Below, piece by piece: positions 5,001 through 29,467 of a stretch of DNA of 42,423 nt; position 1 is the first letter of the stretch; every line of letters begins with the position of its first letter. The translations under genes were made by a program, and so were the position numbers. The notes under the pieces are model-generated. The model had not been told where the DNA came from. It saw nothing but the letters and a program-made list of their open reading frames with translations, and did not search any database. Source of the DNA: an uncultured Eubacteriales bacterium (lineage in GTDB: Bacteria; Bacillota; Clostridia; TANB77; UBA1234); contig CASDSU010000011.1 of the NCBI GenBank assembly GCA_949283575.1, positions 1 to 42,423 of the forward strand, in the 5' to 3' direction.

Positions 5001-5279
5001 TTTAGATAAGATATATAAACTTGCCACATTATCTTTATCAATTAAGTTATATTTAATAAATAATTCTTTTATTTTGTCCATTCTAACTTTCTTACGTTTT
5101 AATCTTTTTCTAAGACTTCTATACTCTCTTCTTTTTTCATTAACTGCACCACCATCTTTCGGACGCTCAGCTGCTTCAAAAAGTCTGACACCTAAATCCT
5201 CGATTCTGTTTTTTTCCAAGTTTATAACGGCCCAACCTATTGATTTTATTCCAATATCTAACCCCATAACATACTTCAT
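2022..5279 (-). CDS. cas9: CRISPR-associated endonuclease Cas9 (subtype II-C)
   Basis: At 1085 aa it has the compact length of II-C Cas9s such as the Neisseria enzyme (about 1082 aa). All nuclease motifs are intact: RuvC-I MGLDIGIKSIGWAVI with Asp8, an Arg/Lys-rich bridge helix at about 50-75, RuvC-II IHIEVAREL at about 505, HNH EIDHAIPFSRSF at about 586, and RuvC-III HHAEDA at about 730. It should therefore cut both strands of crRNA-matched DNA. The start is fixed by an AAAGGGG ribosome site 5 nt upstream. The tracrRNA lies just upstream on the same strand, so readthrough from its promoter may feed cas9. The PAM cannot be read from the sequence. Confidence 0.98.
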   Translation of the reverse strand: MKYVMGLDIGIKSIGWAVINLEKNRIEDLGVRLFEAAERPKDGGAVNEKRREYRSLRKRLKRKKVRMDKIKELFIKYNLIDKDNVASLYILSKEDTDVWKLRLEALDRKLTNREFARVLTAIAKRRGYKSNRKIEEIDEKSENGKLTKAIKLNKLYMESNGYRTVGEMFAKDEKYLVSKRNKGGQYNNCIDRNELVEEIKIIFEKQREYGNALASENFEAEYLEVFNWQKAFMSAELIRKMIGKCTFEKEEPRASKNSYTFERFMLLQKVNNLSYTLKGEKIYLTEDDKKKIIDQAYLVKSGIKYSKIRKDLNLPEEAVFTGLNYYQKLIKKEDGSYEKMPYEEIVKKTEESAIFVKLVGYHEIKSVLNDCREKERILKDYDLLDKIAEVLTLNKTDVTLTEELKKLELDNCTISALLKINFTKFGHLSYKTMKKILPYLEEGMQYDKACVLAGYNFKNDDENPKYKLPIIPKEDIRNPVVYRAVTQTRKVINAVIDKYGSPFEIHIEVARELTKSFKDRKKTEKDQLENRAMNDNLKKDIEEHFGIKAKPVDMLKKKLYHEQGGKSAYSLNPIDYNRLFENGYVEIDHAIPFSRSFNDSYNNKVLVLSRENQEKRNMTPYEFLSENGKWEEYEAWVKSTYRNNFKKRENLLVKNFNSEKENEWIERNLVDTKYIARYMSNFVKKNLLFDNHGEKENRIKVKTIVGAATTALRHYWGIPAKNRAESDLHHAEDAVIIACATDSFQKKIREYSKEKELYYPNKNGEYFDPSTGEIVDVKYKTHEMGRPWENFKEELEARMSQNPVHDLKYGNFTNYNDVDIEKVKPIFVSRMPNRKISGQAHEETIYSLKHNKDNGVVTVKKPLNRISKAEIEMVINKEECKELYRSDKDLYDRIYQRLLMYDFKSEKAFPNDFEFRKFSAKGEGPLVRTIKVPSVLNAGVEVQKGLAANGNMVRVDVFTKDDKYYLVPIYVAHMVKDKLPNKAIKANKPENEWLEMDKNYIFKFSLYPNDMIVIKKKKEEPIYCYYNSTHRNTGAINVILHDGSKRIEGIGIQNLDIFEKYEVDVLGNYHKVKKEKRKGGKNNKK

Positions 5280-8734: not shown

Positions 8735-9334
8735 TTACTTTTCATATTTTTTCACAACATAAGCACAATATTCAACAAGTTCTTCAATGTTTGTGTTTTT
8801 ACATTTTTCCAACTTTTTCTTAAATTCATCTAAATCTTTTAAACCTGCAAGTTCTTTTTGGAATAAGTCTGCATATACTTTACCTTTTTCCTTATCACTT
8901 GGTAGCTTGTCCACAAATTTAGCATTCTTCATTGCCTCATCAAAATGAGGCGAAAACCATATTGGAATTACGTAATCTTCAACCCATGTTCCTTTAAACA
9001 TTTCTCCCGATTTATAAAGTGCCGCTTCTCTTTCATTGCAATCATCTAAATCCATAATTGTAAATATTGGGCAGTCAATAAGCTTGTTATCTTGGACATT
9101 TGGTATAAACTCTTTTTTTACAGCACTCAAACTTTTTAATTTTGTATTTGAGAGAATAAACTTTAAAAGTCCATTTACTTGTATACTACTCCTACCATTA
9201 CAATTTGATATAATTACAATATTTATTCTAAATTTTCTTTTTAAATATTCCATCATCAATAGTTCAGATTTTCCGTGAACAATTACAATAGCTCTGCAAT
9301 AATTCACTGGAGGAGGAAATCTTCTATTAGGCAT
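8735..9334 (-). CDS. TOPRIM-domain protein (OLD/RloB-like partner of the ATPase)
   Basis: A 199-aa protein with a TOPRIM signature: a beta strand ending in the catalytic Glu (AIVIVHGKSE, Glu24), then IFTIMDLDD at about 93 supplying the acidic DxD. Stand-alone TOPRIM proteins next to AAA15-type ATPases occur in several anti-phage systems (OLD, PARIS AriB, RloB), where the TOPRIM part is the nuclease. I cannot assign it to one of these families. Its AGGAGGGG site lies inside the end of the ATPase gene, whose stop is 3 nt upstream, so the two are translationally coupled. Confidence 0.75.
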   Translation of the reverse strand: MPNRRFPPPVNYCRAIVIVHGKSELLMMEYLKRKFRINIVIISNCNGRSSIQVNGLLKFILSNTKLKSLSAVKKEFIPNVQDNKLIDCPIFTIMDLDDCNEREAALYKSGEMFKGTWVEDYVIPIWFSPHFDEAMKNAKFVDKLPSDKEKGKVYADLFQKELAGLKDLDEFKKKLEKCKNTNIEELVEYCAYVVKKYEK

Positions 9335-9337
9335 TTA

Positions 9338-10672
9338 TTACTTCCCCTCCTCTTGTGTTTCATCTATTAGTGTATTTTTAATGTCATCAAAATCTATATA
9401 TTCCCCAACTGGTATTCCGCCAAATAGTCCTTTAAAATATAGATCTCTTACATTATTATTCTTTTGTATTTTAAAATCATAATCTGTAATACAATTAATT
9501 TCTTTATTTCTATCATAGTCAAATGTTATCAGATATAATTCTTTTGGTGGTAAAGTTTCCAAAAGTAAAGTATTATGTGTTGTTATTATTAATTGTCCTG
9601 TTATCTCATCTTTCATTGACATAATTATATTTTTTACTAATAAATCGTGAATTCCATTATCAATTTCATCTATTACAACAACTTTTCCACGAATCGCATC
9701 TATCAAATTATTAAACTGTCCTAAAATTCTAAGTGTACCGCCAGACTCTTCTTTGTAAGATATTTTTCTAACTTTATTAGCTATTTTTTTCTCAAAATAC
9801 AACGCATAGTCTATTTGATTATCTTTTTCCTTTTTGTCATAATAAACTGCTTTTACATCCGCATACGCTTGAGTAAAAAATGAATTTAATATTTTTTCAT
9901 ATTTATCTAAAAGATTTAATTTGCTTTTATCAATTAAACCTTCTTCTATTCTAAAATTATTAAATACATTGCTTAAATATGGAATATTCGTTTTTTTGTC
10001 TAACTTAACTGTAATTTTAGAAAAATTATCTACTACATCTATTAAATTTTCAGAAACATTATCTTCGATAAAAGTTTTGTTTTTATTTACAAACTCTTCA
10101 TACAATATAGCTAAAAAAGAATGTTTTCCCCAATACTTTTCTATTTGTTCAGAAATTTCTTTTCTATATTTTGTTCCTTTGAAAATTTTAAGATTCAATT
10201 TATAATCTATTTTTTCTTCAACTTTTTTTATTTCGAAATGAAAGTTTCTTTTTTTATTTTCTTTATAATAAAGTTTTTCTTCTAAAATAGTATCATCAAA
10301 TTTCACATAGTAGTTTCCCTCAACACCGTCTAATAAAAAACCATATTCCACTTCTGTTGGCTCTGTTTCATCAATCATTCCCAAGCCTTCAATGCCCTTA
10401 AATAAGTCAAATATTTCTGGATACATATCCGATCTTTCCATGAACTCCTTCATATATTGAAAGTCTTTAGGCATCTCTTGCAACGCTTTATATGCCACCT
10501 TGGAAAATATTATTTTTCTCAAAGCATCAAAAGCCGTTACCAAATGTGTTTTACCACATCCGTTTTCACCATATATAGCCACAAAGTTCTTTGTTTTCTT
10601 TTGTGTTTCTTTTAAATTTAACGTTACATCTTTTAAAGATTTAAAATTCTTTAATTTCAAATACGTAAACAT
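9338..10672 (-). CDS. AAA15/OLD-like ABC-type ATPase
   Basis: A 444-aa ATPase with N-terminal FTYLKLKNFKSLKDVTLNL, Walker A GENGCGKTH at about 36, an ABC-like signature SGGTLRIL at about 309, Walker B VVVIDEIDNGIHD at about 334 and an H-switch ITTHNTLLL at about 364. This order is that of AAA15/OLD-family ATPases, which act as sensors in phage-defence systems with a TOPRIM nuclease. The ATG at 10672 is chosen over a GTG at 10684 because AAGGTGG lies 8 nt upstream. First gene of the ATPase-TOPRIM-HEPN cluster, with its own promoter. Confidence 0.85.
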   Translation of the reverse strand: MFTYLKLKNFKSLKDVTLNLKETQKKTKNFVAIYGENGCGKTHLVTAFDALRKIIFSKVAYKALQEMPKDFQYMKEFMERSDMYPEIFDLFKGIEGLGMIDETEPTEVEYGFLLDGVEGNYYVKFDDTILEEKLYYKENKKRNFHFEIKKVEEKIDYKLNLKIFKGTKYRKEISEQIEKYWGKHSFLAILYEEFVNKNKTFIEDNVSENLIDVVDNFSKITVKLDKKTNIPYLSNVFNNFRIEEGLIDKSKLNLLDKYEKILNSFFTQAYADVKAVYYDKKEKDNQIDYALYFEKKIANKVRKISYKEESGGTLRILGQFNNLIDAIRGKVVVIDEIDNGIHDLLVKNIIMSMKDEITGQLIITTHNTLLLETLPPKELYLITFDYDRNKEINCITDYDFKIQKNNNVRDLYFKGLFGGIPVGEYIDFDDIKNTLIDETQEEGK

Positions 10673-10710
10673 ATCAAAAACCACCTTTTTTATAAACTAT
10701 TACTTATTAT

Positions 10711-16404: not shown

Positions 16405-17844
16405 TTATTTATTCACTATTGCATTTACATCCATATATTCATTATTTGCATTTCTTACTTCAAAATGAAGATGTGTTCCTGTTGCATTTCCTGTTTTACC
16501 AACGATCATTATTTCATCTCCAGCATTAACACTATCTCCAGCTTCAACTAAAATTGTTGAGCCATGATGATAACTTGATATACTGCCATCTATATGTTTT
16601 ATTTCAACATAATTTCCTTTTTCTGTATCATATGTAGCCACTTCTACAACTCCACTTGCCGCAGCTTTTACTTTTGTACCTTCTTTGGCAACTAAATCTA
16701 TTCCGGTGTGCATCCTTTCTTCTTTCGTAATAGGATGTACTCTTGTACCAAATGTTAAACTTACATTTGTATATTCTATGGGCACAATATATTCAACTTT
16801 TGGAATTATTTTTTCTTGTTTATCTACTTCAGCAGAAATTCCAGCTATCATCTTTATCGTCTCGTTATCTGCTTTTGTTACTTTATCGCTTGCAAATGAT
16901 ATTGTTAAAACTGAAACCATTAATATTGTTACTACTATAATAAACATTGAATTTTTAATATTCTTGTTTTTCATTTGTATTATTCTCCTTTCAATTTCTT
17001 TTTTGCTACTGCATATACCTGGCATTTTGTTTTCCTTTAAATTGCACAATTCAGTAATTTTCAATATTGCCATACAGTATTCCTTTACTGTAATATTAGT
17101 CTTTAGCACTGAATTATCCGTTATAATTTCTAAATCCTGTTTTATTGTTTTAAATGCTATTTTTACAATTGGATTGAACCAATGTATTCGCTCCAAAATA
17201 TTAAATATTATGTATAAAATGTGATGATTTCTTTTATAATGATTTAATTCATGAACAATAATACATTTAAGTTCATTATCAGAGAAGTTTAATATTTCTT
17301 CTGTAAGCAATATTTGAGGATTAAATATTCCATATAGCGAAGGCATTTTTATTTTATCTTGAACAACTATTTGAACATCTTTATCTACATTCAATTCATT
17401 TTGACATTCCTTTAGAAGTCTTGAAAGTTTCTCTGGAACTTCAGCTGATTTTTTCGTATCCAAACTTTTATAAATCAATACATCTGCAACGATCAACGAC
17501 AAAGCAATTGAAAACCATACAAATGATGCAATTTCCTGCAAACTCATTTTTTCAGTATCTTCACTTGTTACATTCTCATCATTTACATTAAGATTTTCAT
17601 TATTTAATTGCATCGATTCCGCCAATACATAAGTTTTGTCCATGTTTATAAAATTTTTAATACTTAAATGACTTTGAAAATTTAAAGGAACAATTAAAAC
17701 TACCATAAATATAATCCATAGCAAACTTGTATTTTCTTGATTCACCTTATTTTTAATACACTTTCTAGCTATCAAAATAATAAAAAATACCAAACTTGCT
17801 ATTGTCGACATGGATAATATATTTATAAAAAGAGTTTCTAACAT
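16405..17844 (-). CDS. BlaR1/MecR1-type M56 metallopeptidase fused to an M23 (LytM) peptidase
   Basis: A 479-aa protein. N-terminal membrane helices at about 5-25, 42-60 and 105-120 precede a cytosolic M56 domain with HELNH at about 200, the zinc motif of BlaR1-type antirepressors. A further transmembrane helix near 300 (MFIIVVTILMVSVLTI) puts the C terminus outside. That part is an M23 domain with FGTRVHP, HTGID at about 381 and HLHF at about 458, the zinc ligands of LytM endopeptidases. In place of the beta-lactam-binding domain of BlaR1 it therefore has a peptidoglycan-directed module. It overlaps the BlaI-like repressor gene by one base. Confidence 0.88.
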   Translation of the reverse strand: MLETLFINILSMSTIASLVFFIILIARKCIKNKVNQENTSLLWIIFMVVLIVPLNFQSHLSIKNFINMDKTYVLAESMQLNNENLNVNDENVTSEDTEKMSLQEIASFVWFSIALSLIVADVLIYKSLDTKKSAEVPEKLSRLLKECQNELNVDKDVQIVVQDKIKMPSLYGIFNPQILLTEEILNFSDNELKCIIVHELNHYKRNHHILYIIFNILERIHWFNPIVKIAFKTIKQDLEIITDNSVLKTNITVKEYCMAILKITELCNLKENKMPGICSSKKEIERRIIQMKNKNIKNSMFIIVVTILMVSVLTISFASDKVTKADNETIKMIAGISAEVDKQEKIIPKVEYIVPIEYTNVSLTFGTRVHPITKEERMHTGIDLVAKEGTKVKAAASGVVEVATYDTEKGNYVEIKHIDGSISSYHHGSTILVEAGDSVNAGDEIMIVGKTGNATGTHLHFEVRNANNEYMDVNAIVNK

Positions 17845-18215
17845 TATTTATCCTCCTCATCTCCAACTAATTTTATTAAATCTTCTAAATCCTGTTTACT
17901 CAATTTATTTGACTTCGCAAAAGCTACCAGCATATTATTAATTGAGCCATTATATAACTTCTCGATAAAATTATTAGTTTCTTTCGATTTATAATCGTAT
18001 TCAGATACTTTAGGCTTGTATATTAATAAAGATTTATCCTCTCGAATCACATCAATAAATTCTTTATTAACAAGTCTAGTTACTAATGTCATAATCGTAT
18101 TGTTTTTCCATTCCTTTTTCTTTTTTACTTCACTAATTATTTCAAGTGAAGTGCTTGCGCCTTTTTGCCATAATACTTGCATTACCTCTAACTCTGCTTC
18201 AGAAATATTTTTCAT
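17844..18215 (-). CDS. BlaI/MecI-family transcriptional repressor
   Basis: A 123-aa winged-helix repressor. It starts ISEAELEVMQVLWQKG and contains the recognition segment NNTIMTLVTRLVNKEFI, both diagnostic of BlaI/MecI. Its partner protease is encoded immediately downstream. By family logic the M56 protease cleaves or triggers loss of this repressor when the cell wall is stressed, releasing the operon. The start is fixed by AAAGGAGGAG 5 nt upstream. Two operators lie in its promoter. Confidence 0.93.
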   Translation of the reverse strand: MKNISEAELEVMQVLWQKGASTSLEIISEVKKKKEWKNNTIMTLVTRLVNKEFIDVIREDKSLLIYKPKVSEYDYKSKETNNFIEKLYNGSINNMLVAFAKSNKLSKQDLEDLIKLVGDEEDK

Positions 18216-18727: not shown

Positions 18728-20227
18728 TCACACTTCTAAACCAGCCTTCTCCACCTCAACCACCTTCGTCGCTATCTTTTCTATAAATCTTTCATCATGC
18801 TCCACAAAAATCATAGTAGTCTTATAATTCAAAATCATTTCTTCAATTTGTTCTCTGGTTAATATATCAATATAATTCAAAGGCTCATCCCATATGTAAA
18901 TATTCGCTTGCTCAGATATACTCTTTGCTATCAAGACTTTTTTCTTTTGTCCTTCACTCATGTCTTGAATGACGGTATCAAAGTCTTTTTGTAATAACCC
19001 CATTTTTATTAGCATCGCCTTGAATATACTTTCGTCTATTTTGTTTTCCTGTGCAAATGATTTTAAACTTCCTTTTAAATTTTCTGTACTTTGTGATACG
19101 TGAGATATTTTTAAATCTTTAAGCACTTTGATATCGCCATTATGTTCTAATTTTTCTCCTAATATAAGTTTTAATACGCTTGTTTTCCCAACTCCATTTT
19201 TTCCTACAATTGCTATTTTATCACCGCTATTCACTTCAAATGATATTGGCTTAAATATTACTTCTCCGTTATATTTTATTTGCAATTTACTTATTGAAAT
19301 TAATGGATTTCTACCGTTCTCTAAAATAACCATTTTTAATTTATCATTTCTATCAATATTTCTTAATAAATTACTTTTTTCATCTATTGCTTTTTCAATT
19401 CTTTGTTCAATTACTTTTGAACTTTTCATCATTTTAGCAGCTTTATGTCCTATGTACCCCTTATCTATAAAAGCTTCCGGATTGTTTTTTCGGCTCTTGC
19501 CTTTTTCAGCTTCATTTGACCATTTTGCAGTGTTTTTTGCAGCAGTTTCAAGTCTACTTATATCTTTTTGTAATTTTTCATTTTGCATTATTTCAAAATT
19601 ATCTTGTCTGTCTTTGTTTTCTTTCCACGTTGAAAAATTGCCTTGCACAATTTCTATACTTGAATTATTTATGGCAATTATATGATTTACAACTTTGTCT
19701 AAAAAATTTCTATCGTGCGATACTAATATGAAGCCTTTTTTCTTTTCTAAATAATTTACAATATTGTTTCGTGTTTCTATGTCTAAATGGTTTGTTGGCT
19801 CGTCTATAAGTAAAAAATTATTACCCTTTAGGAATAAACTTATTAAAAGAATTTTTACTTGCTCTCCGCCACTTAACAAATTAAAGTTTCTATATAGTAT
19901 TTCTGTGTCCGCCTTTAATAAATTTAATTCTTTTATTATTTCCCATTCTTCCGCATTTGGAGCGATTTCATTTACTATTTCTATCGATATTTTTTCTTTA
20001 TTGGCAATTTCATATGGAAAATAATCAAGTTCAACTTTTTTTGTTATCGTTCCTTTATATTCATATTTACCTTCCAATAATTTTAAGAAAGTAGTTTTTC
20101 CTTTTCCGTTTCTTCCAATTAACCCCAGTTTCCAGTCTGTGTCGATATTAAATGATACATTTTCAAATATATTATTGTAACTTCCATCATAACCAAATGT
20201 TAAATTATTTACACTAATTAAAGACAT
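18728..20227 (-). CDS. Lsa-type ABC-F ribosomal protection protein
   Basis: A 499-aa protein with two ABC domains and no membrane segments. Walker A sites are GRNGKGKTT at about 38 and GKNGVGKTS, signatures are LSGGEQ and MSEGQ, and Walker B regions are LLIDEPTNHLD and YIWDEPLNYID. The DTDWKLGLIGRNGKGKTT start and IWDEPLNY are characteristic of the Lsa subgroup. Members bind stalled ribosomes and dislodge lincosamides, streptogramin A and pleuromutilins. The 40-residue linker between the ABC domains is Lys-rich (NTAKWSNEAEKGKSRKN). Resistance is inferred, and other ABC-F roles are possible. Confidence 0.88.
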   Translation of the reverse strand: MSLISVNNLTFGYDGSYNNIFENVSFNIDTDWKLGLIGRNGKGKTTFLKLLEGKYEYKGTITKKVELDYFPYEIANKEKISIEIVNEIAPNAEEWEIIKELNLLKADTEILYRNFNLLSGGEQVKILLISLFLKGNNFLLIDEPTNHLDIETRNNIVNYLEKKKGFILVSHDRNFLDKVVNHIIAINNSSIEIVQGNFSTWKENKDRQDNFEIMQNEKLQKDISRLETAAKNTAKWSNEAEKGKSRKNNPEAFIDKGYIGHKAAKMMKSSKVIEQRIEKAIDEKSNLLRNIDRNDKLKMVILENGRNPLISISKLQIKYNGEVIFKPISFEVNSGDKIAIVGKNGVGKTSVLKLILGEKLEHNGDIKVLKDLKISHVSQSTENLKGSLKSFAQENKIDESIFKAMLIKMGLLQKDFDTVIQDMSEGQKKKVLIAKSISEQANIYIWDEPLNYIDILTREQIEEMILNYKTTMIFVEHDERFIEKIATKVVEVEKAGLEV

Positions 20228-20332: not shown

Positions 20333-20764
20333 TTATCTTCCGACATTAGTCTGATATAGAAAGTCTAACTGACTTAATAGTTTTTTTTCTATCAATTCTG
20401 TATCATATCCTGAGTCTAAAACTATTTTATTAAAGATTTCTATTCCAGATGTAGCACATTTTTCCGCTTCTTCATACGTTTTTTCTTCGTTAGCATATAA
20501 ATCTATATCTTCATTATTTTCGATTTTTTTGCCTAGTAATATGCTTGAAAGAAAGGCTTTATCTTCTGTATTAATATATTCATATCTAATATATCCTTCT
20601 TTGCTTTTGATTGGTTTAGGCTCTTTTAGTCCCATACCAGCCATCATAATAAATATTTCTAAATTATTTACACTATTGTCTTCAAAACCCAAAATATTCT
20701 TTTCTCTCCAGCTATCAATTATTGCCCTGTCTTGCTTATTAATATTCAACCTATCTTTACTCAT
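20333..20764 (-). CDS. DndE/Dnd-associated-like small protein
   Basis: A 143-aa helical protein with NLEIFIMMAGMGLKEPKPI, GYIRYEYINTEDKAFLSSIL and a C-terminal helical part (EEAEKCATSGIEIFNKIV). Size, the MAGMG helix and position right after a DndD-like gene recall DndE or the small Dnd-system-associated proteins. The identity is tentative. It overlaps the end of the DndD-like gene by 8 nt (ATGAGTAA), so it is translationally coupled as the last gene of the operon. Confidence 0.55.
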   Translation of the reverse strand: MSKDRLNINKQDRAIIDSWREKNILGFEDNSVNNLEIFIMMAGMGLKEPKPIKSKEGYIRYEYINTEDKAFLSSILLGKKIENNEDIDLYANEEKTYEEAEKCATSGIEIFNKIVLDSGYDTELIEKKLLSQLDFLYQTNVGR

Positions 20765-22118
20765 TTATCGTTTTCACTCCTTCAATTTCTTGTTCATTAT
20801 CAGATAATTTAATAAATCTATTCGATGAAACATTATCGGAATAGATTTCTTTTACTTCCTGTGAATACTCATCAGGTGTAAAGAGCATTATTATTTGCTT
20901 TTGTTTCGAAATTTTTAGAAGCTCTTTTGCCATATTGATTCTATTTTCATCAGATACACGGCCGAGTGGAGAATCGACAACAAGAGGGCAGTTTTGACCA
21001 GAAACTTCATGAATGGCCATCGTGAATGCGTAAGCAAGAGCCATTGTTTCGGTTGCGCTCATCGATCCAGTCATTTCATTATCATTAATGTTAAACACTT
21101 TTAGTGAATATGAATCATCAATTGTTATTTTCTTAAAAGTGTCTTTTTTCCATATCATATTTGAAAAATATTCCCATGTTTTTTCCGTTATCTCTTCTTT
21201 TATTTCGTTCATTATATTGTCTATTATTTTTTCTAAATATCCAGCAAGTGATCGAAACACTCTAACTTGTTCTCTTAATGCATTAAATGCTTTTTGCTGG
21301 TCTTCATACTTTTTAATGGTTTCATTTATCTCATTCAAACGTGCTTGATAAATATCAATAAGCCCTTGTTGGTTATTAATTATATTCTCTAAATTATTTT
21401 TTTCTGTTATTTTATTTTGATAATCATTTTCTATGTTTGAAATATCCCTAGTTTCGTGATTTGCAAAAAAAGCACTTAAATCATCCAATTGTTCTTCAAG
21501 TTCCTTTTTGGTTTTTAGATAATATTTTTCTGATTGAATTAACTCATTTCTTTCATTTTCATAATTTTCTGCATTTTTAATAAGACTTTCCAAAGAGCCT
21601 TTTATTTCCATGAGATAGTTAGATGTACTCGCAGATACTTCTAGTTTTTCTAAAACACTTCTAATATGTTGCATAGCATGTTCATTAATTTCTCCATCAC
21701 AGACAGGACAGTTCTTTATATGATTATTAATAATATTTTCAATTTGTTGCTTATCTATACTAGGTGGCAGTTTTCCTTTTAGTTGTTTATCTTTAATTTC
21801 TTCTACTGTTCTTTTTGCGTATGGATACAAACTTAAATAAATCATATAATTTCTAATAAACTTCTTTTTCTTTACCTTAAAACTATCATGGTCATTTTCA
21901 ATAGATTCTAATCGTTTGCTCAAATCTTCTCTTTTTTCTTGTTTATTCTTTATTGAAGCATATTGTTTAAGTTGATCACTTAACTGCTCAATTTCTCTTG
22001 TTATTTCTGGAATTTTATATTGAGCGTCCTTTATTTCTTTGTTGGACTTCGAAATAAAACTTTCTTTTGCTGCCTTCTCATCATATAGTTTTTCATCAAT
22101 TCCGAGTTTTCTTACCAT
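20757..22118 (-). CDS. DndD-like SMC ATPase, C-terminal half
   Basis: A 453-aa reading frame. Long coiled coils surround a CPVC zinc-hook-like motif at about 136. The C-terminal half of an ABC/SMC ATPase follows, with signature-like GSMSATETMALAYAF and Walker B PLVVDSPLGRVSDE, close to the PL(V/I)(V/I)D(S/T)PLGRL pattern of DndD. It lacks Walker A, which is in the adjacent frame (22096-22758). Together the two give about 670 aa, the length of DndD. The ATG at 22118 lies 23 nt before the upstream stop. Either one frameshifted gene or a natural two-gene split. Confidence 0.8.
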   Translation of the reverse strand: MVRKLGIDEKLYDEKAAKESFISKSNKEIKDAQYKIPEITREIEQLSDQLKQYASIKNKQEKREDLSKRLESIENDHDSFKVKKKKFIRNYMIYLSLYPYAKRTVEEIKDKQLKGKLPPSIDKQQIENIINNHIKNCPVCDGEINEHAMQHIRSVLEKLEVSASTSNYLMEIKGSLESLIKNAENYENERNELIQSEKYYLKTKKELEEQLDDLSAFFANHETRDISNIENDYQNKITEKNNLENIINNQQGLIDIYQARLNEINETIKKYEDQQKAFNALREQVRVFRSLAGYLEKIIDNIMNEIKEEITEKTWEYFSNMIWKKDTFKKITIDDSYSLKVFNINDNEMTGSMSATETMALAYAFTMAIHEVSGQNCPLVVDSPLGRVSDENRINMAKELLKISKQKQIIMLFTPDEYSQEVKEIYSDNVSSNRFIKLSDNEQEIEGVKTINE

Positions 22119-22758
22119 ATTTTCTCTCTTTTTCTGTAGCTATAGCTTTAACACGTGCACAAGCATTTTGTAATAAAGTGACTTGAGAGATATTAAAGAT
22201 AGAGTTTTTAACATTCTCGGACTTATTTTTATTGAAATAATCTCTTAAATTTTCACCATCAAAGAAATAGTAATTGTAAATTGATTCATCAAAATATTGT
22301 CGTAGTAGCTCAGTCGTTCTTTCATCTTCTTCAAGAACTTCAGTATTTCCATTCTTAGTTGTTTTAGTAATCGTAAAATACGTTTTTCCACTTGATTCTG
22401 CTATTTTCATATTATTATTTAAGGAATTATAGTTAATTTTGAATTTTTGAAGACGTTCAAAATAAATGAAATCGTCATTATCAGATATTTTAATTGTAAC
22501 TGATACTAGAACTTCATCACCAGCATTCGCATCTTGAACAATTCCTTCATTTATCACTTTCAAGGCAGTTTGTTCATTATTCATATATAACTCTTTCTCA
22601 TATAAACACCAGAGTATACCATTTAAAAAAGTGGTTTTTCCAGTTCCATTTTTAGCTCGTAGAACATGGAGCTTATTATCTGACTCATCGTCAAAATTAA
22701 TTGTGACATCTTTATATTGTCTATAATTTTTAAAAACTATTTGTTTAATCTCAACCAT
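22096..22758 (-). CDS. DndD-like SMC ATPase, N-terminal half
   Basis: A 220-aa frame that starts VEIKQIVFKNYRQYKDVTINF with Walker A RAKNGTGKTTFLNG at about 39. It also carries YYFFDGENLRDYF, a segment shared with DndD proteins. It ends soon after entering the coiled coil. The ATG at 22758 lies 1 nt after the stop of the 56-aa gene upstream; a longer frame to 22791 is less likely. DndD is the ATPase of the DNA phosphorothioation complex. This half cannot hydrolyse ATP without the Walker B half encoded next. Confidence 0.8.
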   Translation of the reverse strand: MVEIKQIVFKNYRQYKDVTINFDDESDNKLHVLRAKNGTGKTTFLNGILWCLYEKELYMNNEQTALKVINEGIVQDANAGDEVLVSVTIKISDNDDFIYFERLQKFKINYNSLNNNMKIAESSGKTYFTITKTTKNGNTEVLEEDERTTELLRQYFDESIYNYYFFDGENLRDYFNKNKSENVKNSIFNISQVTLLQNACARVKAIATEKERKYGKKTRN

Positions 22759-22759
22759 A

Positions 22760-22930
22760 TTATTCGTTTCCTTTTCTGTTAATATAATCACATATTATTT
22801 TTTCATAAATTTCTTTATATCTGTGAATACCTTTATCTTCATGTTCTAAAATATCCAGCAGAACCGTTCTCAAACCTTCGTCCTTACATTCTTTTTTTAA
22901 CTGTTCATGAATTTTTTTACTGATTGCCAT
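22760..22930 (-). CDS. 56-aa protein within the Dnd-like operon
   Basis: ATG at 22930 to TAA at 22760 gives 56 aa. It is charged and helical (KKIHEQLKKECKDEGLRTVLLDILEHEDKG, written here only in part). It overlaps the helicase gene end by 14 nt and stops one base before the ATPase ATG, an arrangement expected of a real coupled gene. No family recognised. It may be a subunit or adaptor of the ATPase. Confidence 0.6.
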   Translation of the reverse strand: MAISKKIHEQLKKECKDEGLRTVLLDILEHEDKGIHRYKEIYEKIICDYINRKGNE

Positions 22931-24980
22931 CTAAATCTACCCCATTTTCTAAGAATACTTTTTTTACTTCATCAAAGTTAATTGCATTTTGAGCAATCTG
23001 TAATGCCCTCAATGCTTCTTTTTTCAAAATGCTATCATTTGTATTAACTATCAAATCATATATAATTGATTTTTCCTTGTTTGGTGCAATTCTTATAACT
23101 CTACCAATCCTTTGAACGTATTCTCTCGGATTAGTGCTGCTACTCATAAGAATTGCTATTCTTGCATTTTTAATATCAATTCCTTCATCTAAACATTTTA
23201 TACCTAATAAAACTTGAACTTGACCTTTTCTAAACTGGCTAATATATTCTTCTCGTTCAGTATTGCCAGATACTCCAACAATTCTAGAAGTCGATTCTTC
23301 TTCTGTTATCTTGCAACGAGTTATTTGCTTTGATGAAAGCGTTTCCATAACTTTACTAATTTGTTTGTCCGAACAAAATATAATAGTATCCTTTAAATTT
23401 CTGCCTTCGTTCAATCGATCAACTATGTTTTCAACAGCACCATATTTGTTTTCTGCATTTTTTAATACATTTGCTCGACTTATTTTTAGTTTAGAAATTT
23501 GATCTTCATTTTTGTCATCCTGATTCATTATGAATGCTATCTTTTTTGTATAACTATTATACTTAGAAAGTTCATCTTCATTTAGTTCAACAAAAACGGG
23601 AATGTAATAAAAATCATTTAAAAATGGTTTTTTAGTTAACGGATTAATAGTTGTTAATGCATCTCTAATCGTAAATTCAAAACTGTTATTTCCAAAATAA
23701 CTTCTGATTAGTTGAGTCCCTTCACTATCGTACATTCTCTCAGGTGTTGCACTTAAACCAATTCTATAATCATAAGAATCAATTAATGCTTTTTGCCTAA
23801 CATCTGAGCCAATTGCATGTACTTCATCACATATATATAAAATATTTAAATTATGTTTTGATTCATTAATTATTTTAATGAAATTTGAATTGGATGAGGT
23901 ATCGTGAGTTGTAAAAATAATACCATCTTTGTATATTCCGGAATTAATATCTAACATTATAGCTTCCAAATCTTTTTTCCATTTTGAATTGCTTCCATCA
24001 ATTATTTTTGAAATATCAAATTCTATCTGTAGTTCATTTTCTATATCATTCTTCCATTGTCTTGAAAGTGTATTTTGAGGTGTAGAAACAATTACCAAAA
24101 ATTTATCTACCTTTCCTTTTAAAGTCATAAAACATCCAATCGCAGTTCTCGTTTTACCAGTACCAGTCGCCATTTCCATTAAAAGCCTATGGTGATTATT
24201 GCTCCACTTTTCAACAGCCAGTTCCTGATGTTTGAACAAAGACATCGTGAACTCTCTTTCTTTCTTATCTGTTTTATACTTCTTCATTATAGATAAATCA
24301 TGAATGTTTCTTGGAGAAACTTCTATTATTTGTTGTTTTATTGATTCTGGCAAATCATATACCTGAGCAATCGATTCTCTTTTGTTATTCCAGAAGTCAT
24401 TAAATTTTTTTAAATCACTTGTCAAATAACCCAATTGACCAAATTCCCATGATTTAAAAGTCTTAAATTCTTCTATATTGTTCAACCATGCTTGAGCTGT
24501 TTCATTTATAGAGCCACTAAAGGAAATCATATTTCCTTCTTCATCTGTAAATATTCCTACCTTTTGATGAAATATACTTTCTCTAGAGTTTTTATCAATT
24601 ACAATTTTTATTTCCAATTTATCATTTTTTAACATCCAAGCCAATGCTTCCAAGTTATCATTACCTTTGAATTCATCAATATTAAAAGAATCAAAAATAC
24701 CAAGATGTTCAGAAAGTCTTTGATAATTATATTCTTTAATAACATAAAAATCTTGTTCTGAAAGTCTAGGGGATATAAGTAATTTCATTTTTCCGTTGTT
24801 TTTAATCAAACCCTCAATTCCTTTTGATGCTACTACCAGACTGCTGCTACTGAAGAAACCAGCAATTCTGTTATATTCAATACTTTCGCTTAAAATTGGT
24901 ATATAAAACCTTTCTAATAAATCTGTTTTAGAGGAATTCGATTCATAACATTCTTCAATATCCAAATCTTTAAAGCTCAT
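22917..24980 (-). CDS. PLD-like nuclease / superfamily-2 helicase (Dnd restriction-type)
   Basis: 687 aa. The N-terminal 230 residues form a PLD-like domain (FYIPILSESIEYNRIAGFFSS, then SIFHQKVGIF with an HxK motif near 139). An SF2 helicase follows: Walker A MATGTGKTRTA at about 275, DExH-type ICDEVHAIG at about 383, LSATPER, and motif VI QRIGRVIRIAP at about 627. This layout recalls the helicase-type restriction protein of some DNA phosphorothioation systems; only one HxK was seen, so a dimer may form the nuclease. The ATG at 24980 (GGAGA box) lies 2 nt after the upstream stop. Confidence 0.85.
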   Translation of the reverse strand: MSFKDLDIEECYESNSSKTDLLERFYIPILSESIEYNRIAGFFSSSSLVVASKGIEGLIKNNGKMKLLISPRLSEQDFYVIKEYNYQRLSEHLGIFDSFNIDEFKGNDNLEALAWMLKNDKLEIKIVIDKNSRESIFHQKVGIFTDEEGNMISFSGSINETAQAWLNNIEEFKTFKSWEFGQLGYLTSDLKKFNDFWNNKRESIAQVYDLPESIKQQIIEVSPRNIHDLSIMKKYKTDKKEREFTMSLFKHQELAVEKWSNNHHRLLMEMATGTGKTRTAIGCFMTLKGKVDKFLVIVSTPQNTLSRQWKNDIENELQIEFDISKIIDGSNSKWKKDLEAIMLDINSGIYKDGIIFTTHDTSSNSNFIKIINESKHNLNILYICDEVHAIGSDVRQKALIDSYDYRIGLSATPERMYDSEGTQLIRSYFGNNSFEFTIRDALTTINPLTKKPFLNDFYYIPVFVELNEDELSKYNSYTKKIAFIMNQDDKNEDQISKLKISRANVLKNAENKYGAVENIVDRLNEGRNLKDTIIFCSDKQISKVMETLSSKQITRCKITEEESTSRIVGVSGNTEREEYISQFRKGQVQVLLGIKCLDEGIDIKNARIAILMSSSTNPREYVQRIGRVIRIAPNKEKSIIYDLIVNTNDSILKKEALRALQIAQNAINFDEVKKVFLENGVDLDGNQ

Positions 24981-24982
24981 TT

Positions 24983-25663
24983 TTATCTCCATTCTATTTC
25001 GTGTAACAACGAATTGTTTTGTAGTATTAATTTCACAATATACTTTACATTTGATCTTCTTCTTTCGGCTGTACTTTTTTTTAGGCAAGTTAAAGCCATT
25101 TTCATGTAGTTAGCTTTTCCTTGTTTTGCATCAAAAATCAAGGAATATATAAATTTGTTCCTGAGTGCTATTCTCTTAATAATTTCAAGTCGACTACTTG
25201 AATCTAAATATACTGTAAATGCTCCAAAATTAGTATTTTTTACGTATATAGGTCTTTTACTAACGGCTACAAGAGATAACTCTTTAGCCAATTTTGCATG
25301 ATTTTCGCCATATTTAGTACAAGCACCTACAGTTTTAGCATTTATTAATGCTTTTCCCAAATCACAAAAAGATAATTCAGACTTATCAATTTCAAGAATT
25401 GCAGGAGTTTTAATGATAGCACTTTCAAAGTCACTAAATTGTACTATATCTGTAACACCATATTCTTTTTTTGTATTAATGCAATCAATAAATTCTTCTA
25501 TAGGAATGCTTAATAGAGTTTTACAGCATATCTCCAATGTACATTTATCGCCATTTTCTAATTCATTTACGGCTTCTTTATTTCCATTCAAAAATTCATT
25601 GATGTAATATTTGCATCTTTTATCATTTGTAAGATTTTCATACCATTTTTGATAAAAGCTCAT
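24983..25663 (-). CDS. Unrecognised protein between radical SAM and helicase genes
   Basis: A 226-aa protein (SFYQKWYENLTNDKRCKYYI… to …NNSLLHEIEWR). It has no signal peptide or membrane segment. The N-terminal half is helical and the C-terminal part is rich in Lys/Arg (CLKKSTAERRRSNVKYI), which could bind nucleic acid. I cannot assign a family. The start is fixed by GGGGGG, itself the end of the radical SAM gene, 5 nt before the ATG. The stop precedes the helicase start by 2 nt. Obligate co-expression with both neighbours implies a shared function. Confidence 0.75.
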   Translation of the reverse strand: MSFYQKWYENLTNDKRCKYYINEFLNGNKEAVNELENGDKCTLEICCKTLLSIPIEEFIDCINTKKEYGVTDIVQFSDFESAIIKTPAILEIDKSELSFCDLGKALINAKTVGACTKYGENHAKLAKELSLVAVSKRPIYVKNTNFGAFTVYLDSSSRLEIIKRIALRNKFIYSLIFDAKQGKANYMKMALTCLKKSTAERRRSNVKYIVKLILQNNSLLHEIEWR

Positions 25664-25664
25664 T

Positions 25665-26837
25665 TTACCCCCCATTATTTTTGTACAAATCTTCCATTCG
25701 TAAATCAAAGTATTTCTTTGCAATTTTAGGAAACTCTTTTTCAAATTCAGTTAGCGACCTTAATGAAGAACATAATTTTGTTTTATCTTTCTTTAGTTCT
25801 TGATTCGCTTCGCAGAATTGTCTAAAACTCATTTTTTTTATGATTGATGGTTGATTACACCATCTTGCCATTGTTATATAAAGTTCTCTGTACTTTGACT
25901 CTTTCCATGGAGTTTCATTTTTGTTTTGGAATCGCATCAAATAAGGCAAACAACCATATTGTAGTAGAAGAGCAATTCTCTTAAATGCATTTTCAATATC
26001 CTTTTCATCTGTACTTTCAAAGCCAACTAACACATAAAATTTAACTGTTTTTCTTTTGTTGTATTTTCTAATCATTTTTAACTTTTGATGTATTAAGTCG
26101 TAATCAGAAATATTATCAAATGCAAACGTAAAATCGCCATCATATTTTGAATTAAATAGCATTTCGCATTTTTCATCAGTAAGTAATCGTTCATCTAATC
26201 CTTGTTTAAATTTGAATTTTTTGCCTGTATCTATTAGTTGTTGCAACATTTCTTTCCACTGTGGGCATCCTAAAAAATTGTCATCAAGTAGACATATCTT
26301 TTTTCTTCTTTTATCATAGAATTCATCTAGTGGACTATGGTCGAAAACTCTGTCATATTTTTGATTTACGCAGAATTTACATTTTCTAAAGCATCCTCTA
26401 GTTAAAAAACCTATTGAGTAATCTCTGTATTCTTTAAATTGGCTTAAGAACTTTTCTTTTTTAAATTCCTCACCATTTTTAATTGCTTTTCTCTTAGCTT
26501 TATTCATTTCTGACGTAATCCATTTATTATATAGAGAGTAATCTGGTTTATGATGTTCGATTTTATCAGGCAAGTTTGGTGCTTTATCAAAGAAGAAACC
26601 AGTTCCACCAATGTGAACTTTTTTAGTTTCTTTTAACCAATCTGGTACCTTTGTATCAGTAAAAACTTTACAAACATATACTTGCGAATACTCTTTAAAA
26701 TGGTCATAGTCCATCAAGAGATCTACTTTGTATCCTTTTTCTTTCCAATATGCAGATATTTTCTCACAAGCCAAATTTGGAAACCTGTGCTTATCTCTGC
26801 CAATTAAGTCAGCATCAACTATTCCAATTTTTTTCAT
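25665..26837 (-). CDS. Radical SAM protein with N-terminal B12-binding-like fold
   Basis: A 390-aa protein. The N-terminal 110 residues look like a Rossmann/cobalamin-binding-like domain (KIGIVDADLIGRDKHRFPNL, VHIGGTGFFF), without a clear DxHxxG motif. The 4Fe-4S cluster motif CFRKCKFC follows TRG at about 149-156, then LLDDNFLGCPQW and KFKQGLDERLL. Radical SAM enzymes of this general type also occur in phages; their substrate is unknown. The ATG at 26837 with AAGGAT upstream is preferred to a longer frame. First gene of the operon. In this context it may modify DNA or a nucleotide, which is inference. Confidence 0.85.
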   Translation of the reverse strand: MKKIGIVDADLIGRDKHRFPNLACEKISAYWKEKGYKVDLLMDYDHFKEYSQVYVCKVFTDTKVPDWLKETKKVHIGGTGFFFDKAPNLPDKIEHHKPDYSLYNKWITSEMNKAKRKAIKNGEEFKKEKFLSQFKEYRDYSIGFLTRGCFRKCKFCVNQKYDRVFDHSPLDEFYDKRRKKICLLDDNFLGCPQWKEMLQQLIDTGKKFKFKQGLDERLLTDEKCEMLFNSKYDGDFTFAFDNISDYDLIHQKLKMIRKYNKRKTVKFYVLVGFESTDEKDIENAFKRIALLLQYGCLPYLMRFQNKNETPWKESKYRELYITMARWCNQPSIIKKMSFRQFCEANQELKKDKTKLCSSLRSLTEFEKEFPKIAKKYFDLRMEDLYKNNGG

Positions 26838-27049
26838 TTTATCTATATCCTTATTAAAAATATTTATAAAGTAGGTGTAAAACACCAAAAAACTACATTT
26901 TTATTTTAGCACAAAATCTATTCCAAACAAACATAAAATATGACTTGTATGCGCATTTTCACATAAATTAGCCTATATTTTGGCAATTTTTATTATCACT
27001 CGAATCTGTTAAAATATTTTACATTGTGTTAGCTACATTTTAAAATTCT

Positions 27050-27148
27050 TTATCTATAAAACGAGAGTATATTTTGTGAATCGTTGTTATATTGTAAGTG
27101 CCCAATCTTCTGCTTATTATTTAAGTTTATTATCCTATCGTCACTCAT
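27050..27148 (-). CDS. Possible 32-aa ORF after the DUF2075 gene
   Basis: The ATG overlaps the DUF2075 stop in the form ATGAGTGA, giving 32 codons (SDDRIINLNNKQKIGHL…). The overlap is what coupled genes show, but the length is near chance and no family is recognised. Confidence 0.25.
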   Translation of the reverse strand: MSDDRIINLNNKQKIGHLQYNNDSQNILSFYR

Positions 27149-29126
27149 ATTTATACTCCGCTCCCTCTTCAGCAACTTTCAATACATCACTATAGTCTTC
27201 CTGTTCCTTTATTTCATATCTAAAACTTCTATCCATATTAGAAATTCTAACTTTAAGATATTCCGCTAACGCTTTATCTTCGCAATAAACATAGCAACAT
27301 TTCGTTCCTCTTGTCATTAAAGTTCTATATGTATTCTTTATTATAGTATCAGCTATTTTCAATGCTTTTTCTGGTTCGTTTTTAAACATTGTTTTTATGC
27401 CTTTTAAAGAATTATCTGTTTTTGCCCTTTGAGTAAAATCTGTTATTACTTGTCCATTTTCATATCTTAAGTCTTTTCCAATGATTACACCCACATGGTC
27501 AAATTCTAGTCCTTGCGATGTATGTATGCAACCAACTTCATTTACCGAATCTGGATCAATCGCCCAAGTCGAAGTATTATTTAAATTCCACTTCATATGA
27601 AAATCATAATCAGGAAATTCTATGTCATATTCATTACCACGAGGATTATTTTTAGTAATCCAATTATAACAATATCCCGCAACAATTCTCGCTTTATTAT
27701 TAATTTTATTTAGTTCAAATATTTTTTCTTTTAATTCTGATGGACTATCACAAACTTGTATATCATAGTTCATTTCGAATCCGTCTTTGTTTGCTGTTTC
27801 CCTGATTTCTAAAACATCATCTAGCCATGCTAAATAACCATCTGATCCATTACATCTAAATTGTGACTCTAACTCTAGTTCTTCAATTCTATCATCAGTA
27901 ATTCTATAATGTTCTATATGCCTTTTTATCTCTTCGACAGTACCTATATCATGTATATCTATTCGTTGACTCTCATCTATAAAAAATACCGAAAACTTTG
28001 ATGCTTTAATTATTTCTTTTATTTGGTTTTCACCTACATTTCTAAACATACCTGATTTTTCATTTAATCTGTGTGCTTCATCAACTAATATTACGTCCAT
28101 CTCATTATTAGCCGATTCTACATATGAACCAGAACCTTTAAACATGTTATGAATTCTTGTCTTTTGGAAAGTTCCTGTCAATTTTGTTTCGAATACATTT
28201 CGTGGTGCTGCATTTTTTGTACAATATTGACATACCATTTCTTCATTTGTTAATTTTGCAAGCAAATTAATTGCCAATACCGTTTTTCCTGTACCTGGCC
28301 CACCTTTTACAATCAGACATCTTTTTTGATTATCTTTATATGACTTTCTAGCCATTTTCAAAGCTGTTTCATACACAACTTTTTGGTTGTCTAATAAAAC
28401 AAATTCAGGATTATTATTTAACATATTTGCTATACAATCTTGTAGAGCTTTTGATGGTTTTATTTTTCCGTTTTCAATCAAATATATTGTTTCTTTATTA
28501 TCTCCATATTTAACATATTGAGATATAAAATTTCTAAGTTTCTTATAATCACCACTAACAAATATAGGAGCTAAATCAATATAATTCTGAAAGCATGATG
28601 CTTTAATAACTGGTGGTGTTGTTTCAACATAGTTGTGCAAATATGCACAAGGATGCATTATTACATTGTTATTTTGCATCATTTCATTATAATCTTCTAA
28701 ATATACTTTATAAGACCAAGCTTGATAAGACGGATGCGTAACTTCTCTTATTGCTCCACCAGTATATGTACTTACATCTTTTACAATACCATCCTTTTCA
28801 CTAGAAATTTCTGCTTTTTGCCATTGTTTTAACTCTATTATTACACCAGTTCTATTTTCCTTTTCATCTCTTCCAGTTATAATAAAATCAATTCTCTTCG
28901 ATGTGTATGGAATTTTATATTCAATTGCAATACCACAATTTTTAGGAATCGATTCATCTGCCAATACATTTTTCATATATTGCATAGAATTCTGCCATGC
29001 AGTTATTTCTCTTGGATTTGGATTACTTCCTACTTTTATTCTATATCTTTGTTCAACTTTTCTAGCAAGTTCATTTGTTAAAACATCATCAACAAACTCT
29101 TCTTTTGTTGCTTCGTATACTATCAT
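27141..29126 (-). CDS. DUF2075 nuclease-helicase
   Basis: 661 aa. An N-terminal PD-(D/E)XK-like nuclease domain is suggested by RIDFIITGRDE at about 80 and GVIIELKQW at about 98 (D…ExK). A DUF2075/Schlafen-type P-loop helicase follows, with Walker A KGGPGTGKTVLA at about 275, Walker B ILVDEAHRLN at about 348, FIDESQRI, and IHTSQGLEFDHVGVIIG in the C-terminal part. The ATG at 29126 is preferred because GGGGG lies about 9 nt upstream. It is followed on the same mRNA by no large gene and preceded by a MazG-like gene 26 bp upstream. Such pairs recur in defence islands; a defence role is inferred. Confidence 0.85.
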   Translation of the reverse strand: MIVYEATKEEFVDDVLTNELARKVEQRYRIKVGSNPNPREITAWQNSMQYMKNVLADESIPKNCGIAIEYKIPYTSKRIDFIITGRDEKENRTGVIIELKQWQKAEISSEKDGIVKDVSTYTGGAIREVTHPSYQAWSYKVYLEDYNEMMQNNNVIMHPCAYLHNYVETTPPVIKASCFQNYIDLAPIFVSGDYKKLRNFISQYVKYGDNKETIYLIENGKIKPSKALQDCIANMLNNNPEFVLLDNQKVVYETALKMARKSYKDNQKRCLIVKGGPGTGKTVLAINLLAKLTNEEMVCQYCTKNAAPRNVFETKLTGTFQKTRIHNMFKGSGSYVESANNEMDVILVDEAHRLNEKSGMFRNVGENQIKEIIKASKFSVFFIDESQRIDIHDIGTVEEIKRHIEHYRITDDRIEELELESQFRCNGSDGYLAWLDDVLEIRETANKDGFEMNYDIQVCDSPSELKEKIFELNKINNKARIVAGYCYNWITKNNPRGNEYDIEFPDYDFHMKWNLNNTSTWAIDPDSVNEVGCIHTSQGLEFDHVGVIIGKDLRYENGQVITDFTQRAKTDNSLKGIKTMFKNEPEKALKIADTIIKNTYRTLMTRGTKCCYVYCEDKALAEYLKVRISNMDRSFRYEIKEQEDYSDVLKVAEEGAEYKYE

Positions 29127-29152
29127 AATAATTGCCCCCAAAATTAAAATTA

Positions 29153-29467
29153 TTATAATTTGTTATATTTCGTACTTACACCTTTGGCTTTTTCAATTGG
29201 ATATTTCTTTGCTGAGATTTCCATTTTATCTAATATTATTTCTTTTGGATCAACTCCAATTTGATGAGATAATAATATACAATAATTCATTACATCGGCA
29301 ATTTCTTGTTTTAATTCATCTTTATCATAACTATTATTCCATTGAAAACATTCCAATAATTCTCCCGCTTCTATTGCAATAGATTTTGCTAAATTCTCTG
29401 GCGTATTAAATTGTAACCAATCTCTATCTTCTGCAAATTTAACTATTTTTTGTTCTAATTCTTTCAT
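29153..29467 (-). CDS. MazG-like nucleotide pyrophosphohydrolase
   Basis: A 104-aa all-alpha NTP pyrophosphohydrolase. NLAKSIAIEAGELLECFQW and KQEIADVMNYCILLSHQIG carry the ExxE…ExxD metal ligands of the MazG/dUTPase-like fold. It hydrolyses NTPs or dNTPs to monophosphates. Located 26 bp upstream of the DUF2075 gene and probably co-transcribed. It could clear a nucleotide signal or substrate as part of that system. Confidence 0.85.
   Translation of the reverse strand: MKELEQKIVKFAEDRDWLQFNTPENLAKSIAIEAGELLECFQWNNSYDKDELKQEIADVMNYCILLSHQIGVDPKEIILDKMEISAKKYPIEKAKGVSTKYNKL

Follow-up and report, generated by a model that had tools for sequence, protein, structure and literature searches.

An operon in a 42,423-nucleotide stretch of the genome of an uncultured Eubacteriales bacterium (contig CASDSU010000011.1; the whole stretch is referred to here as the window) encodes a radical S-adenosylmethionine (SAM) enzyme, rSAM, a 226-residue protein, p226, and a PbeABCD-type defense effector. 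We consider it somewhat probable, though far from secure, that rSAM and p226 form a DNA-marking module for discrimination of self from non-self, and that the effector attacks DNA lacking the mark. The phosphorothioation module of a PbeABCD-type defense system would in this case have been replaced by the two-gene rSAM-p226 module. The radical SAM enzyme would place a carbon-centered modification on host DNA or on nucleotides entering it, the predicted winged-helix protein p226 would supply DNA targeting or couple the mark to the effector, PbeC and PbeD would scan DNA, and PbeA, a putative translocase and phospholipase D (PLD) nuclease, would act on unmarked DNA or block its replication. We infer DNA to be the substrate and the mark to be protective, and likewise infer what p226 does and in what order events occur.

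The operon and its proteins

The genes run from 26837 to 20333 on the minus strand, each abutting its neighbor or overlapping it by a few bases (start codons were checked). A scan for promoter and terminator consensus sequences gave nothing above chance. The features are as follows.

26838..27140, no strand: presumed to hold the promoter; intergenic, and the only sizeable non-coding gap before rSAM
25665..26837, minus: rSAM, with CxxxCxxC at C149/C153/C156
24983..25663, minus: p226 (226 aa), constant partner of rSAM, with a predicted winged-helix fold
22917..24992, minus: PbeA, PLD (HxK) and superfamily 2 (SF2) helicase, beginning at either 24992 or 24980
22760..22930, minus: 56-aa open reading frame (ORF) in the PbeB position; placed by position, size, and similarity to relatives
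22096..22758, minus: N-terminal half of PbeC, ATP-binding cassette (ABC) ATPase with Walker A NGTGKTT (PADLOC PbeC, E 2e-30)
20757..22118, minus: C-terminal half of PbeC, with coiled coil, CPVC zinc hook, and second ATPase half (PADLOC PbeC, E 5e-40)
22096..22125, minus: 1-nt frameshift splitting PbeC, where tblastn of four intact relatives changes frame
20333..20764, minus: 143-aa ORF in the PbeD position; placed by position and similarity to relatives

The original prediction, made from the sequence without database searches, had described these genes as a Dnd-like operon of six abutting or overlapping frames with DndD- and DndE-like proteins. The place, strand, and abutment of the frames were correct, but the ATPase is two ORFs split by a frameshift rather than one frame, and the Dnd labels give way to PbeABCD (the effector with a CxC ATPase), an already described set recognized by PADLOC. 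The PADLOC PbeA profile matches residues 38-709 of the PLD/SF2 helicase (E 4e-194), which carries HxK, Walker A GTGKT, and DEVH motifs and also matches TIGR04095 (dnd_restrict_1; E 2.4e-92), under the family cut-off. The DndD-like ABC ATPase with its CxxC zinc hook (CPVC) is PbeC by PADLOC, and because the helicase and ATPase match PbeA and PbeC, we take the effector to be PbeABCD rather than DndDE. A Dnd core that had lost DndC was rejected for the same profile assignments. The 56- and 143-aa ORFs gave no match in profile searches of Pfam, NCBIfam, and PADLOC. The first is 39-45% identical to the same-position ORF of the related loci L002 and L005 and the second 28-36% identical to the same-position ORFs of L002 and L090, and from position and this likeness they are probably PbeB and PbeD, the latter being the cognate of DndE according to the literature. 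The break in PbeC is a single nucleotide near 22,100-22,120, across which the proteins of four relatives match in two frames (tblastn); PbeC of the relatives is uninterrupted at the site. It may have arisen by genuine mutation, reflect a mistake in the assembly, or mark a site of translational termination and reinitiation.

By its CxxxCxxC motif and the barrel fold of its AlphaFold2 (AF2) model (predicted local distance difference test score, pLDDT, 93), rSAM can be assigned to the radical SAM superfamily. It scores 13.4 bits against Pfam PF04055, under the cut-off, and falls in the same family as the phage proteins of PHROG 9298, "radical SAM domain protein" (E 4.6e-55); cluster motif, PHROG match, and modeled fold all bear out the original call of a radical SAM gene. 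The nearest folds in the PDB, among the matches listed, were MiaB (Foldseek E 5e-9), a tRNA-modifying enzyme, MgmA (Z 17.9), AprD4 (Z 17.2), RimO, and MtaB. A two-domain radical SAM fold is common to rSAM, MiaB/RimO, and the B12-type radical SAM methylases exemplified by MgmA, but identity to rSAM is just 11-16%, and the match to MgmA does not establish cobalamin binding by the N-terminal domain of rSAM. In MiaB-type enzymes, a second 4Fe-4S cluster is held by three cysteines near the N terminus, whereas the CxxxCxxC cysteines are the only ones invariant in 40 rSAM homologues; a MiaB-like second cluster is therefore not indicated, and a MiaB-type sulfur-inserting enzyme was rejected for lack of invariant auxiliary-cluster cysteines. 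No viperin-type structure was among the matches listed, which excludes nothing, and phmmer searches of PDB sequences with rSAM, p226, and the DUF262 effector described below gave no result.

Residues 77-144 of the AF2 model of p226 (pLDDT 94.4) matched winged-helix structures, and a longer stretch of 148 residues aligned with the recognition domain of FokI (Z 7.2, root-mean-square deviation [rmsd] 3.6) and with SspB (6JUF; Z 6.7, rmsd 3.5). On this model p226 is a probable DNA-recognition or adaptor protein. Because Z scores in this range may reflect a common arrangement, and because comparison with the DUF4007 profile of SspB by hhalign was negative (probability 0.2%), we regard DNA recognition as a lead and not a result. 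No family for p226 was found in Pfam, NCBIfam, PADLOC, or PHROG; only DUF7226 appeared, at E 0.011 and for 2 of 13 members.

Recurrence and effector exchange

A scan of a genome collection with rSAM yielded seven relatives at 61-73% identity, to which phylum and class samples added more; the sample of the Spirochaete phylum gave no further loci. Ordinary phage contexts aside, all 13 rSAM loci have a homologue of p226 in the operon (less certainly so in L096), and these loci carry three types of effector.

PbeABCD (6): the window, L002, L005, L089, L090, and L046, the last on a contig from a viral collection
ParB/SNF2/ParB (4), in the order ParB1, small nuclease-like protein, SNF2, ParB2: L003, L004, L008, and L096; the small ORF is not listed in L003
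GmrSD-like, GmrSD_N/DUF262 (3): L006, L007, and L094

The recurrent linkage of rSAM to the ATPase and helicase, on which the original prediction had been staked, is found at six loci including the window. The earlier reading missed both the constant pairing of p226 with rSAM and the swapping of this pair among three effector types. Chance adjacency of rSAM is rejected by the 13 loci. In L090, rSAM stands at the far end of the locus in convergent orientation; L005 belongs to a possibly misbinned metagenome-assembled genome that bears a nanoarchaeon label; and the ParB proteins of the four ParB loci gave only weak PADLOC matches, to PD-Lambda-5 and PDC-M38A.

The occurrence of p226 is linked to that of rSAM. 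Among the 341 genomes of the class sample, three contained p226 and four contained rSAM, and all three p226 genes adjoin rSAM (P = 6e-7); the fourth rSAM lies within a phage-like region (L095). Because rows from all three p226-bearing genomes were part of the alignment used for the p226 search, the count shows that p226 did not turn up by itself and is not a full census of p226. In L046, rSAM and p226 form a single 632-aa polypeptide, and in L096, where p226 is seen only as a divergent C-terminal extension, a fusion is likely but less certain. A scan of viral contigs with p226 gave one locus, on the same contig as L046.

The partners differ in how they vary. In the first set of loci, identity to the window protein is 64-73% for rSAM versus 24-40% for p226. 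Over the 13 tips, the rSAM tree requires at least six effector changes and the p226 tree four, indicating that p226 tracks the effector better than rSAM does. Sister pairs with unlike effectors in the rSAM tree are L002 (Pbe) with L003 (ParB), L006 (GmrSD) with L008 (ParB), and L096 (ParB) with L046 (Pbe), and all three are starred as supported in the 29-row tree. A conserved rSAM and a variable p226 fit a chemistry subunit joined to an adaptor or specificity subunit that tracks the effector.

Phosphorothioation genes, phage relatives, and alternative explanations

The DndCDEA-PbeABCD systems described by Xiong et al. 2019 (PMC6459918), which are the CxC ABC ATPase-DndE systems of Rakesh et al. 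2024 (PMC10853773), require modification of host DNA, and virus DNA carrying the host phosphorothioate (PT) mark evades them (PMC6459918). In the same study, 320 of 553 PbeAC pairs had no dndCD alongside, with base-modifying genes near 155 of these (PMC6459918); the described partners of PbeABCD are PT genes and cytosine methylases (PMC10853773). For a subset of the PbeAC pairs without PT genes, rSAM-p226 offers a testable answer as to which mark is used.

The original prediction saw no DndC, DndB, or cysteine desulfurase at the operon, and homologues of DndC, SspD, DndB, SspB, and cysteine desulfurase were likewise not found anywhere in the 42-kb window, nor at any of the six rSAM-Pbe loci (0/6). 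A DndC/SspD-type protein of the 3′-phosphoadenosine 5′-phosphosulfate (PAPS) reductase family accompanies five of five PbeABCD sets without rSAM versus none of six with it (Fisher p=0.002). The sets without rSAM, obtained from a PbeA search of the same class sample, are L104-L107 and one on contig C38 of the host itself; C38, L106, and L107 carry Dnd genes, and L104 and L105 carry SspB/SspD-type genes. The host genome (G000; 1.8 Mb, 38 contigs) has dndC on C38 above the family cut-off (353 bits), within a single run (L009, 493-11848) of PbeA, PbeC, PbeD, DndB, DndC, DndD, DndE, and an Mrr-type nuclease, in which PbeA, PbeC, PbeD, DndB, and DndD were assigned by order, size, and similarity to L106 and L107, and PbeA also by profile. 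Of the two PbeA/PbeC sets in the host, that on C38 accompanies an ordinary phosphorothioation operon and that in the window accompanies rSAM-p226. The original prediction had held that a dndC homologue directly associated elsewhere in the genome would tell against it; taken literally, C38 holds one in dndBCDE, but because that operon has its own PbeA, PbeC, and PbeD, it does not do so in the sense intended. An alternative modification coupled to restriction remains the best reading, because rSAM recurs with the ATPase and helicase at loci that lack dndC and dndB, whereas the framing of that modification around a Dnd core does not stand.

Relatives of rSAM in phages point in the same direction. 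Homologues occur on 69 viral contigs (54 after removal of near-duplicates), and methylase-like ORFs make up 25 of 300 genes within three of the phage rSAM versus 6 of 711 more distant ones (p = 3.5e-9), a comparison that uses methylase references drawn from one rSAM neighborhood and position within the same contigs as the control. In phage locus L012, an S-adenosylmethionine (AdoMet) synthetase-like protein, a ParB-N6/N4 methylase, rSAM, and a C5 methylase stand in a row. For most phage copies of the PHROG 9298 family, no p226 or effector was found alongside; the neighbors are genes for methylation or nucleotide metabolism. Viral contigs L019 and L020, whose ORFs look phage-like on inspection, encode rSAMs that share 64-70% identity with the query and fall inside the clade of the window protein; no p226 is present in the available sequence of either. 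Because PT-marked virus DNA escapes published PbeABCD, a phage copy of the host's self-marking enzyme is a natural reading of these genes. In phage locus L062 (6501-8858), an intein containing a LAGLIDADG domain interrupts the C5 DNA methylase that adjoins the rSAM homologue.

The strongest of the alternatives is that rSAM-p226 makes no self-mark and is instead a sensor or signal module, with infection triggering production of a small molecule in the manner of viperin or CBASS (the cyclic oligonucleotide-based antiphage signaling system), or with p226 sensing a phage product, to activate whatever effector adjoins it. One module serving three unrelated effectors fits a signal-effector logic, as does a p226 that varies much faster than rSAM. 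However, PbeABCD elsewhere goes together with DNA modification, the very place that rSAM occupies here, and close relatives beside phage DNA methylases are unexpected for a producer of an antiviral signal; we find this explanation unlikely. It is also conceivable, though quite improbable, that the PbeABCD of the window uses the phosphorothioate mark of the C38 dndBCDE in trans, and that the rSAM pair is an unrelated passenger such as a tRNA or protein modifier. The same genome does hold dndBCDE, and dndC is present in the genome of L005. Against this, C38 already has a PbeA/PbeC/PbeD of its own, and no dndC above cut-off was found in the whole genomes of L002, L089, and L090 (G001, G140, and G231; three of five rSAM-Pbe genomes searched, the completeness of that of L002 not being stated) or of any ParB- or GmrSD-type locus. 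In addition, p226 was not found apart from rSAM and is fused to it in L046, and the pair also stands beside two other restriction-type effectors. The least likely alternative, in which rSAM-p226 would erase or alter a base modification and so turn the effector against modified phage DNA in the manner of type IV enzymes, would suit the GmrSD_N-like effectors, which belong to a type IV restriction family, and the phage rSAMs that adjoin methylases, but published PbeABCD acts with a host mark and rSAM-p226 stands in for the marking genes.

Several observations nevertheless weigh against a DNA-marking role for rSAM-p226. Modification of DNA by the pair is an inference and not a demonstration. When PT genes were missing, published PbeABCD showed neither toxicity nor protection (PMC6459918), so a Pbe set can be idle, and the frameshifted PbeC implies that the copy in the window may itself be inactive. 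The exclusion of phosphorothioation genes was tested over just 11 loci. Some phage rSAMs lie near ThyX, which would also fit nucleotide metabolism, and the phage rSAMs without p226 suggest that p226 is dispensable for the chemistry there. Finally, the likeness of p226 to SspB and FokI is weak and is not seen in sequence profiles.

The recurrence of rSAM-p226 with two other restriction sets, together with its phage cousins, suggests an undescribed mark separating self from foreign DNA. We speculate, with slightly less confidence than an even chance would warrant, that these loci represent a restriction-modification-like class in which rSAM installs such a mark, effectors are interchangeable, and phages counter with their own copy of rSAM. 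If rSAM does mark DNA, it would provide a new DNA modification for self-recognition and a natural phage counter-strategy.

Neighboring genes and comparison with known systems

The window opens with Cas1 (1107-2018) and a 1085-aa Cas9 (2022-5279), so the surroundings of the operon hold several defense genes. An AAA_21 (AbiEii/OLD-like) ATPase (9338-10684) followed by a 199-aa ORF (together 8735-10684) is possibly a two-gene defense pair. At 16405-18215, a BlaI-type repressor accompanies a sensor in which a BlaR1-like M56 peptidase is joined to an M23 (cell-wall) peptidase domain. The gene immediately downstream of the operon (18728-20227) encodes an ABC-F protein nearest the Lsa family of ribosomal protection proteins (690 bits, curated cut-off 750). 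Just upstream, on the same strand (27141-29467), lie a 666-aa helicase protein of Schlafen group 3 type and, ahead of it, a MazG-like pyrophosphohydrolase.

The main texts of PMC6459918 and PMC10853773 name no radical SAM partner of PbeABCD, although an unremarked supplementary listing is possible, and a full-text literature search for rSAM with Dnd/Pbe, ParB/DUF262, or PLD defense operons found no description. The PbeABCD half of the system is known, and the rSAM-p226 module is apparently undescribed in the literature and libraries searched. DndABCDE has the PP-loop sulfurtransferase DndC in its operon, whereas the window operon has none and the host dndC lies on C38 in an operon of its own. 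SspABCD, whose SspB is a DUF4007 protein, is paired with PbeABCD in L104 and L105 and shares with rSAM-p226 the PbeABCD operon neighborhood, but the window has no SspD-type or desulfurase genes. In those two loci (L104, 1080-14587; L105, 3384-17629), the joined PbeABCD and SspB/SspD-type phosphorothioation genes are accompanied by a 1,174-1,213-aa protein, with no Pfam match for the one tested. The window set resembles DndCDEA-PbeABCD in PbeA and PbeC by profile, in PbeB and PbeD by order and size, in its compact operon, and in the modification-type genes beside the effector, and differs from it in having rSAM and p226 in place of DndC, DndA, DndD, and DndE.

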